A stretch of 64,000 bases of DNA from Arenicellales bacterium (GTDB taxonomy: Bacteria; Pseudomonadota; Gammaproteobacteria; Arenicellales; JAHEKD01). A program made the position numbers and the translations under genes. Position 1 is the stretch's first letter; the number at the start of each line of letters is the position of its first letter. Below the pieces are notes generated by a model. It was given only the letters and a program-made list of their open reading frames with translations. It had not been told where the DNA came from and ran no database searches. The stretch is taken from positions 462,609 through 526,608 of the forward strand of contig JANQSD010000001.1 of the NCBI GenBank assembly GCA_028284225.1. Reading direction: 5' to 3'. Of the stretch, positions 32,940-51,625 are shown in pieces.

Positions 32940-33110
32940 TCAGGCCAACAATAATAACGACGAAACAACAATTATAGAACTAACTTCAATTATCGGTTTG
33001 TTTAAGGTAGCATGCTCAGTTTTTTTAATTAGTCTTAAGCAAAACAACATGCCAATAAACGAAATAATCAAGACAAATATTGCTGTATAAATATTTATTA
33101 TTGTTTTCAT
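32940..33110 (-). CDS. small two-helix membrane protein
   Basis: 56-aa protein starting MKTIINIYTAIFVLIISFIG, with one hydrophobic segment at residues ~6-26 and a second near 41-56, separated by 'RLIKKTEHATLNKPIIE'. A strong AAGGTGG ribosome site lies 6 nt before the ATG, which is the main reason to call it real. No family recognised. It is convergent with the ABC operon and next to the region with the duplicated outer-membrane gene end. Confidence 0.5.
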   Translation of the reverse strand: MKTIINIYTAIFVLIISFIGMLFCLRLIKKTEHATLNKPIIEVSSIIVVSSLLLLA

Positions 33111-33242
33111 TTTATACCACCTTTTTATTATTCTCAGGTTACTACTAATGCTGCTATTAAACAACGTGAATAGTACACATACTATTGCATAGTTGTTAGG
33201 GAAAGTCTGTATAACTTTAGTCTTGTGGCCGATTTAATCCTT

Positions 33243-33342
33243 GCTCAAAAGTACCAAACTATTTCTAATTGCAAATGACTGTCCTGGCGTAAATCGAATA
33301 ATACGTTTTCACTATCAACCTGGCTGAAATATTGAGTTTCAA
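33243..33342 (-). pseudogene. duplicated 3' end of the outer-membrane protein gene
   Basis: About 100 bp matching 34275-34373, the 3' end of the downstream barrel gene, with three substitutions and a one-base indel. Read on the minus strand it encodes ...QYFSQVDSENVLF... through ...LEIVWYF and a stop (TGA here, TAG in the intact gene). Two of three substitutions are synonymous. Homology stops sharply upstream, so this is a fragment, not a gene. Together with the intact end it brackets the methyltransferase gene. Confidence 0.85.
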
Positions 33343-33397
33343 TTAGTGAAAACTCAGTTTAATATCCATATTTTTTTAATTAATGAATTATGAATAA

Positions 33398-34237
33398 ATG
33401 CAAATGTTGAATATAGTAAAAAGAATTATTCCCTCGCCGATTAAACTGAAAATTAGAGCTTATCGTGAAGCAAAATTGAAAGAAAAACTATTCGGTGATT
33501 ATGCGTCGCTTGTCCCTGCAGTTGAAGATATGTTCGACGGCCCTCCGAGTTTGCAACACTTTAAGTCAAACGGGGAAAGCTTTCTTGAAATTTACCAAGA
33601 AATATGTGGGCTTGAGCAGGATGAGGTCATGCTTGATGTAGGTTCTGGAATTGGAAGAAAGACTCTACCTCTAACTCGATACTTTAATGATAACGCAATT
33701 TATTGGGGTATTGACTTAACAAAAGTGGGAGTGGATTGGTGTAGTGAAAAAATTACGCCAAGATTTCCAAACTTTCAGTTCCAACATATTGATGTCTATA
33801 ATAAATTTTATAATCCACTTGGAAGCCATCAACCTGAAAAGTATAGATTTCCTTTCGATGATGAAACATTTAGTTTCGTTATGCTCGGATCAGTGTTTAC
33901 TCATATGCTCCCGGCTGAAGTTGAGAACTATTTGTCTGAGATACATCGTGTATTAAAACAAGATGGGCGCTGTTTAATTACTTATTTTCTTCTTGATGAA
34001 GAATCATTAGCATTAGTAGATGCTGGTAATAGCGATTTTGATTTCAAATATAAGTTTGATGGATATCGTACTGTCAGTCGCGAGGTTCCAGAAAAGGTTA
34101 TCGGTCTTGAAGAAGATTTGATCTGGAATCTGTATGCACAGTTAGGTTTTGAAATAAAGCGTGTCGATTATGGTTCATGGTGTAAGCGTAAGGTTTATCT
34201 CAATTATCAAGATATGATTCTAGCCTACAAAAGATAA
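33398..34237 (+). CDS. class I SAM-dependent methyltransferase
   Basis: 279-aa cytoplasmic methyltransferase. The SAM-binding motif I is 'VMLDVGSGIGRKTLPL' near residues 76-91, the acidic motif II 'IYWGIDLTK' near 99-107, and 'FSFVMLGSVFTHMLPAEVENYLSEIHRVLKQDGRCLITYF' forms motifs IV-VI. The N-terminal 'IVKRIIPSPIKLKIRAYREAKLKEKLFGDYASL' resembles enzymes found in surface polysaccharide clusters. It appears more AT-rich than its neighbours and is enclosed by a ~100-bp direct repeat, so it was probably acquired. Substrate unknown. Ribosome site weak. Confidence 0.8.
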   Translation: MQMLNIVKRIIPSPIKLKIRAYREAKLKEKLFGDYASLVPAVEDMFDGPPSLQHFKSNGESFLEIYQEICGLEQDEVMLDVGSGIGRKTLPLTRYFNDNAIYWGIDLTKVGVDWCSEKITPRFPNFQFQHIDVYNKFYNPLGSHQPEKYRFPFDDETFSFVMLGSVFTHMLPAEVENYLSEIHRVLKQDGRCLITYFLLDEESLALVDAGNSDFDFKYKFDGYRTVSREVPEKVIGLEEDLIWNLYAQLGFEIKRVDYGSWCKRKVYLNYQDMILAYKR

Positions 34238-34275
34238 GAATCAGGTCTGTGCGATACAAAAAAATTTACTATAAG

Positions 34276-35463
34276 CTAAAAGTACCAAACTATTTCTAAT
34301 TGCAAGTGACTGTCCTGACGTAAATCGAATAATACGTTTTCACTATCAACCTGGCTGAAATATTGAGCTTCAAGATTAACCTTTACGCTGTCACCGAATC
34401 TGCGGCTGGTTTCAAGTCGAAATGAACGGCTTTGATCGTCCAGATCATAGCCAAAGCCGGCTAATAATTCAGTGCTTTGTACGTCGTTCATTGCCAGGCG
34501 AGTGCCGAAGAATAAATCATTTTGTAAAGCCGCTTGGTTTTTGTCGCGTTGGTCATATTGATATTCCATTAACACACCCAGATCAGCGTCACTTTCATTA
34601 ATACCGACAAAAGTATATTCAAAACCAGCGCCGGCGGCCCAGAAATTTTCATTTAACCCATCTCTATGAATGGCCTCCAGCTTCCATAGCCATTCTTCGC
34701 CAGTGTATTGTAAATCTAGGCCGGTTTGTTCAATTTGCTGATAAAAAGGGACTAAACTCGATTGATCTTCAGAGAGTTGAAAAATCGGTTCCCGGCTAGT
34801 GCCGTCAAACCAGGATATGCCTATGTCGAAGTTACCGAAATAATGAGACCAGCGCAGCGCATAATCAATATGATTTTCTTCGTCGGAAGATTGATAGGTG
34901 ACATTGTCGGTATCAACAACTAGACCGGAACGTAAACGACCCTCTTCACCTGCAAAAGTACGTTCACGAAAATAGGGCAAAACAAAGAATTCCACTAGAC
35001 CGAAATCCTTGTTTAACCCCAGGTGCAACATAGGCTGTCCGAGTTTGTCTTCCCCGTCGATGTTCTCAACTGTATCGGTTTGATTAACAATATCCACTAA
35101 ATGTTGAAACTCAAGCACTCCCCAGAATATTTTGTTAATGCCTATTCGCCATTCCCAATCACCGTTAACATCGAGGAAGTAAAGCTCTCTGATGTCTGCA
35201 TGTGTGCGTTCATCATCTTCACTATCAACTCGAGCAAATGGAATAAAAGTAATACCATTATCACCGTTGTTCCATTGATGACGAAATTCAGGTTGAATGC
35301 TGATCGAACCTGTAAAGCCCTCACTTTGTTCAGCAAATAAAGGGTCTTCAATAAAATAACGTCCCTCAATGCCGATGTTGCCGGAAAATTCAGCTCTGCT
35401 TAGCGTTGATGCTGTTAAGCAGAGTATTAGCAACGCTGTTCGTAATATCCACTTGTATCCCAT
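34276..35463 (-). CDS. outer-membrane beta-barrel protein, RND-operon partner
   Basis: 395 aa from the ATG at 35463, giving a signal peptide 'MGYKWILRTALLILCLTASTLSRA/EFSG'. The mature protein is a chain of amphipathic beta strands ('NIGIEGRYFIED', 'DNGITFIPFARVDSED', 'DYALRWSHYFGNFDIGISWFDG') ending in ...VWYF with a terminal Phe, as in barrels. An upstream in-frame start would read through a hairpin repeat and is rejected. It is the last gene of a MarR-RND-LolA-like-barrel set often found together in gammaproteobacteria and assumed to export lipids or hydrophobic compounds. Its 3' end is duplicated at 33243-33342. Confidence 0.75.
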   Translation of the reverse strand: MGYKWILRTALLILCLTASTLSRAEFSGNIGIEGRYFIEDPLFAEQSEGFTGSISIQPEFRHQWNNGDNGITFIPFARVDSEDDERTHADIRELYFLDVNGDWEWRIGINKIFWGVLEFQHLVDIVNQTDTVENIDGEDKLGQPMLHLGLNKDFGLVEFFVLPYFRERTFAGEEGRLRSGLVVDTDNVTYQSSDEENHIDYALRWSHYFGNFDIGISWFDGTSREPIFQLSEDQSSLVPFYQQIEQTGLDLQYTGEEWLWKLEAIHRDGLNENFWAAGAGFEYTFVGINESDADLGVLMEYQYDQRDKNQAALQNDLFFGTRLAMNDVQSTELLAGFGYDLDDQSRSFRLETSRRFGDSVKVNLEAQYFSQVDSENVLFDLRQDSHLQLEIVWYF

Positions 35464-35473
35464 AATCGTCATG

Positions 35474-35566
35474 CCGGAAACGCCGAAGGCGTTATCCGGT
35501 GTCTCCATGTTCGAACACTGATTGGTAAACAGAGATTCTGGATACGTGCTTCGCACATTCCAGAAT
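35474..35566. repeat. double-hairpin palindromic repeat (REP-like)
   Basis: Two strong hairpins: CCGGAAACGCC-GAA-GGCGTT(A)TCCGG at 35474-35499 and ATTCTGGATACGTGC-TT-CGCACATTCCAGAAT at 35535-35566. They lie between the LolA-like gene and the barrel gene, just before the latter's start, where they could lower expression of the distal gene. Similar TCATTCTGG/CCAGAATGA palindromes recur at 53016-53094 and 43738-43800. Confidence 0.65.
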
Positions 35567-35590
35567 GACAAGCGGAAAATATAGAAGTCA

Positions 35591-51397: not shown

Positions 51398-51625
51398 CCC
51401 TCTAACTCCCCCTGGAAGGGAGAGAAAAATCACTTTCCCGGGAGTTTATAAGCCTCCCGTCAAACTTAATAGTACTGACTTTGTTCAATGCCGTTCCCTC
51501 TAATTCTCCCTGGAAGGGGGAGAAAAATCACTTTCCCGGGAGTTTATAAGTCTCCCGTCAAACTTAATAGCACTGACTTTGTTCAAAGCCGTTCCCTCTA
51601 ACTCCCCCAGGAAAAGGAGAATCTC
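51398..51625. repeat. 98-bp tandem repeat; gap 51335-51666
   Basis: The gap holds two near-identical tandem units (51398-51495 and 51496-51593) and the first ~30 bp of a third (from 51594), each starting CCCTCTAA(C/T)TC. Within a unit, CTCCC...GGGAG segments form hairpins (e.g. CTCCCCC-TGGA-AGGG and CGGGAGTTTATAAGCCTCCCG). Differences between units are few. No ORF. It resembles a slippage-prone intergenic repeat and is a good strain-typing locus. Confidence 0.85.

Follow-up and report, generated by a model that had tools for sequence, protein, structure and literature searches.

Some phages integrate with attB at the 3' end of protein genes. Where integrative elements or islands use a gene's 3' end as attB, this end is found duplicated on both sides of the cargo and the gene is restored. 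Duplications beside an insert were also obtained after conjugation in E. coli with one-sided homology, where 56 of 60 atypical recombinants carried them. The duplicated homologous segment measured 109-950 bp where sequenced and was explained by circularisation and a single crossover, while homology-facilitated illegitimate recombination proper usually gave deletions, not duplications (PMC3240628). Bacteria commonly contain small variable segments between repeats, for most of which illegitimate recombination is taken as the origin (PMC2884548). In T6SS effector and Rhs loci, foreign inserts push the old 3' end downstream, for which a homology-facilitated mechanism was proposed (PMC5361080).

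The locus described here lies in a stretch of 64,000 nucleotides from an Arenicellales bacterium, referred to as the window throughout, and belongs to the known class of small variable segments flanked by a repeat. It shares with the segments of PMC2884548 the short strain- or species-specific sequence, the missing mobility gene, the direct repeats and an adjoining membrane-protein gene; however, most repeats there are <30 bp long, whereas the repeat found here measures 96 bp and is the end of a gene. One homologous anchor, one presumed illegitimate junction, an insert of about 1 kb and the anchor duplicated beside the insert are also features of the single-crossover and homology-facilitated illegitimate integrations of PMC3240628. 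Unlike these, the event in the window was natural and unselected, and its 96-bp duplication falls slightly below the range of 109-950 bp. In the T6SS/Rhs loci (PMC5361080), differing new and old ends make up toxin-immunity arrays, whereas the locus in the window has two nearly identical ends and a methyltransferase gene as cargo. In contrast to integrative elements at gene 3' ends, the islet carries no integrase, measures only 1.03 kb and occurs once in the genome.

The duplicated end of the barrel gene

The barrel gene (34276-35571, minus strand) encodes a predicted outer-membrane protein, which ends in WYF and showed no Pfam or NCBIfam matches. By repeat search, two direct copies of 96 bp were identified, an outer one at 33247-33342 and an inner one at 34278-34373, with 3 mismatches (97% identity) and a start-to-start distance of 1031. 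A chance origin of the pair was excluded because of its BLAST E-value of ~2e-43. Both copies represent the 3' end of the barrel gene. The block runs from 2 nt before the final 31 sense codons through these codons to the first base (T) of the stop codon. One boundary lies inside the stop codon, and the other falls on an arbitrary codon, ~32 codons ahead of the gene end. Each copy has its own stop. The minus strand ends with TAC TTT TAG in the inner copy (TAG at 34276-34278) and with TAC TTT TGA in the outer, detached copy (TGA at 33245-33247; whole feature 33245-33342, minus strand), and the sequences 3' of the two stops are mutually unrelated. Two of the inner/outer differences are synonymous (CGT/CGC, CAC/CAT) and one is nonsynonymous (GCT/ACT, Ala/Thr). 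These results bear out the initial annotation, which had described a direct repeat of ~100 bp (33243-33342 and 34275-34373) formed by the last ~32 codons of the barrel gene, with a stop kept in each copy and two of three changes synonymous; the repeat was refined to 96 bp with 3 differences.

The two copies enclose 935 bp with a single intact gene for a class I SAM-dependent methyltransferase of 279 aa (33398-34237, plus strand), in agreement with the ~0.93 kb, the one AT-rich methyltransferase gene and the lack of an integrase inside the segment noted before. An AT-rich non-coding stretch with 16% GC (33343-33397) connects the outer copy with the methyltransferase start, and 33342/33343 is presumed to be an illegitimate junction. 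On the other side, a spacer of 38 bp (34238-34275), unrelated to the sequence past the outer copy, separates the convergent methyltransferase and barrel genes. A hairpin at the outer junction was not significant (z = -1.1), and promoters and terminators were detected at the locus at chance level only. The flank past the outer copy (32940-33244, minus strand) contains a small hydrophobic ORF of 56 aa with a good ribosome-binding site (32940-33110, minus strand).

With a draft genome of 25 contigs and two copies that resemble alleles, barrel ends of two strains might have been joined during assembly. We consider such an artefact very unlikely, as the contig comprises 548 kb with neither Ns nor a contig edge nearby, and the first mismatch is located 5 bases from the repeat end, which leaves no long identical overlap at that junction.

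The locus in relatives

Among the 60 relatives searched, G001 was the sole genome of the same genus. Its contig C96 (3.5 kb) has the same order of MMPL, LolA-like and barrel genes, with a barrel 69% identical. There, 240 bp separate the barrel stop from sequence with homology to the outer flank of the window (score 86 versus 34 +/- 6 for shuffles), including the 56-aa ORF (alignment score 91 versus 26 +/- 4 for shuffles). The outer flank is therefore native. The ORF was seen in no relative's locus other than that of G001 and probably encodes an unannotated small membrane protein. Neither the methyltransferase gene nor a second barrel 3' end is present at the G001 barrel locus, and the cargo showed no homology to the G001 region. 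Because the outer flank is native and G001 has neither of these parts, the methyltransferase islet is probably an insertion. Directly observed are the repeat, an intact cargo gene, a native outer flank and a sister species without the cargo.

The 240-bp spacer of G001 (G001:C96 395-634, L115), which extends from the barrel stop to the conserved flank, is without a counterpart at this place in the window and resembles neither the cargo nor the barrel end. Its interpretation as a decayed copy of the barrel end was rejected, as the local alignment did not rise above shuffles. The spacer was either lost in the lineage of the window or represents an independent insertion at the same gene end. G001 consequently provides an imperfect empty site, in which the spacer leaves the ancestral junction inexact. 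Of the empty site with one 3' end that the initial annotation proposed to look for in relatives, the missing methyltransferase and the single 3' end were found in G001, while the spacer is unmatched in the window.

The wider set of relatives bears on the reading of the locus as a decayed tandem duplicate of the barrel gene, with the methyltransferase gene between the copies. The outer copy is a true barrel gene fragment, as such a duplicate would leave behind. However, G001 carries one barrel gene, and a second barrel match adjoining the first was found in 0 of 110 relatives' loci, within the flanks covered (up to 6 kb, shorter in some). Among the 111 loci with a barrel match, a second match occurred only in the window's own locus, where it is the outer copy. 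Moreover, the remnant has sharp boundaries and 97% identity, and no decayed rest of a barrel gene adjoins it. A decayed duplicate is thus the least probable reading and can be regarded as highly unlikely. Two complete tandem barrel genes in an outgroup, which the initial annotation had named as the sign of a mere duplicate, were seen in none of the 110 relatives' loci. A search of the same loci for a duplicated barrel end yielded one weak hit of 52 bp (L066), which had no second barrel match.

Using G001 as reference, the outer copy agrees with it at both synonymous sites and the inner copy departs (n=2 polarisable sites), as would be expected had the inner end been imported; two sites are too few to carry weight. 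In the case of Ala/Thr, the outer copy may be the one that changed, as relatives most often have Ala at this position, although G001 has Phe. The two sites also concern local break repair or template switching, by which a staggered break or a fork jump would have duplicated the 96 bp, foreign DNA would have been joined and the differences would have arisen later. No donor allele is required for this, a single event gives both duplication and insertion, and illegitimate recombination is the origin mostly assigned to the small repeat-flanked segments of PMC2884548. Nevertheless, it would then be by accident that the repeat ends at the stop codon and that most differences are synonymous, and the copy differing from G001 at both sites is the functional, inner one. 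Overall, we judge break repair to be unlikely.

Integration at gene ends in the host genome

The self-comparison covered 2.46 Mb, ~60% of the host genome, and repeats at a spacing of 0.3-25 kb. The barrel-end pair is one of very few long and close direct repeats in this sequence. The other strong repeats are mostly tRNA 3' ends. Two islands, at tRNA-Lys (12 kb) and tRNA-Phe (15 kb), contain integrase matches, and islets with no integrase match inside were found at tRNA-Leu (7.6 kb) and at tRNA-Asn (4.3 and 3.8 kb, back to back). Given these islands at tRNA 3' ends, gene ends have served as integration sites in this lineage. The barrel locus differs from these islands in target type, in size and in the exact match of its repeat end to the stop codon. 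No further protein gene with a duplicated end was found in the 2.46 Mb, with tRNA 3' ends, paralogues, intergenic repeats and one repeat of the tRNA-Phe island making up the remainder.

Several of these repeats deserve a description of their own. Three copies of the tRNA-Asn 3' end bound the two tRNA-Asn islets (G000:C14:396785-405105; L179, L180) right after a xerD-like gene. One islet carries a 991-aa protein of unknown family and an IS3-like fragment, the other a 1126-aa protein with DMFA2_C and Laminin_G_3 domains. The tRNA-Leu islet of 7.6 kb (G000:C12:116098-123895; L258, L259) is flanked by a perfect 61-bp duplication of the 3' end and encodes a radical SAM protein with a pVip (viperin) match, an nSTAND1 protein and a weak TIR_2 protein, a cargo that by these matches looks like defence. 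In the tRNA-Phe island, a 98-bp direct repeat with 92% identity surrounds an ABC-F-like ATPase gene (G000:C6:60224-64025; L270). One copy lies inside the 3' part of a serine-recombinase-like gene (63889-65220, minus strand), and this repeat may be a second duplicated gene 3' end. The window itself contains two tandem 98-bp copies at 51398-51593 (94% identical, apparently intergenic), which start with CCCTCTAACTCCCCCTGG; related CCCTCTAAC..GGGGGAG motifs were found again on other contigs. At G000:C8:290307-291131, a 100-aa GIY-YIG endonuclease-like ORF is located between intergenic repeat copies of 115-133 bp.

Against this background, the main rival to a homology-anchored capture is site-specific integration, with the barrel 3' end serving as attB and being restored. 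The islet, moved by a tyrosine recombinase acting in trans, would then be either a tiny element without an integrase or what a deletion left of a larger island. The locus is built like an attL/attR pair at the end of a gene, whose 3' end is directly repeated at both boundaries as in integrative elements, and the tRNA-Leu and tRNA-Asn islets of the same genome likewise lack an integrase match. On the other hand, no integrase was found within the insert or nearby (the closest PF00589 match on the contig is xerD-like and ~99 kb away), and 1.03 kb is a small size for an element. Neither a further copy of the islet nor a second islet with the same ends was found in the host genome. The repeat was unmatched in viral contigs and the region in phages or plasmids, and no attP and no other occurrence of the element or its att site were detected in the genome, viral contigs, phages and plasmids. 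Finally, the end of the repeat coincides exactly with the stop codon, a precision not required of an att core. We therefore rate this integration as rather unlikely. The missing integrase and second occurrence lower the identification as a mobile element, not an element-like working. Likewise, the resemblance to integration with 3'-end restoration pointed out by the initial annotation holds for the anatomy, without an integrase, a second element or an attP having been found. A broader version, in which integrase-less cassettes of few genes were mobilised in trans and inserted at gene 3' ends (tRNA-Leu, tRNA-Asn and the barrel gene), with the ends rebuilt and the methyltransferase islet as the smallest, appears quite improbable.

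The methyltransferase and its proposed capture

The cargo protein shows Methyltransf_11/25 domains above the curated cut-offs (PF08241, 50.7 bits with a cut-off of 21.2; PF13649, 46.4 bits with a cut-off of 27). With a GC content of 36.4%, compared to a gene mean of 43.5%, its gene belongs to the bottom 3% of genes, and with a GC3 of 29% to the bottom 2.2%; GC3 aside, its codon choice is typical of the host genome. Homologues, own genome included, were found in 4 of 109 genomes of the order (E<=1e-20), 4 of 369 genomes of the class sample and 8 of 399 genomes of the phylum sample (both E<=1e-30), with identities of ~32-45%. None were found in the phages or viral contigs searched, and homologous plasmid proteins reached ~40% identity only. 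The gene was probably gained horizontally, because the distribution is sporadic and the best homologues are ~40-45% identical. In several genomes the homologues adjoin glycosyltransferases, and a GDP-mannose dehydratase-type protein and a membrane flippase (the latter by sequence only) are further neighbours. Because of these neighbours, the substrate is probably a sugar or surface polymer, and the putative surface-sugar methyltransferase of the window stands outside the usual biosynthetic cluster. A defence role was considered and rejected, as the single PADLOC match (mad2, 8e-12) spans the methyltransferase domain only.

We favour, with roughly even confidence, a recombination event that used the barrel 3' end as its anchor and captured a single gene beside the barrel gene, for which we infer the donor, the entry route and the crossover. 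The DNA entering the cell would have been a fragment from a related strain or species, in which the methyltransferase gene came after the same barrel gene (gene end ~97% identical). A homologous crossover would have taken place in the terminal 96 bp of the resident gene, and the other side of the fragment would have been closed either by end-to-end circularisation, with a single crossover, or by an illegitimate join. The product would show the barrel gene with a complete 3' end, the methyltransferase gene, the left-over barrel 3' end and the native flank in this order, the junction ~32 codons upstream being the illegitimate one, and no dedicated mobility enzyme would be required. Recombination between alleles accounts in a simple way for the foreign gene, the repeat ending at the stop and the two different stops with unrelated sequence behind them, because alleles share coding but not downstream sequence. 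The single-crossover variant fits better, since homology-facilitated illegitimate recombination proper usually yields deletions. The sporadic, AT-rich methyltransferase gene, the mostly synonymous differences, the homology of the outer flank, but not of the cargo, to G001, the insert free of integrase and the lack of a second islet in the genome also speak for capture. A ComEC-family protein encoded in the host genome is consistent with DNA uptake; such proteins are common and no proof of competence. Against capture, 96 bp is short for RecA-dependent recombination. The origin from a donor strain's orthologue, as suggested by the initial annotation, thus agrees with the favoured reading; a donor allele in which anchor and cargo are linked was not found in the loci and collections searched, which are without strain-level genomes.

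Since anchor, junction and native flank are visible, the trace of a single-gene capture is still readable here and its mechanism is testable. Duplicated 3' ends of protein genes could serve to detect small captures that island finders miss. The locus represents a clean, not extraordinary example of how a bacterium gains a single gene, most likely by homology-anchored uptake of DNA.
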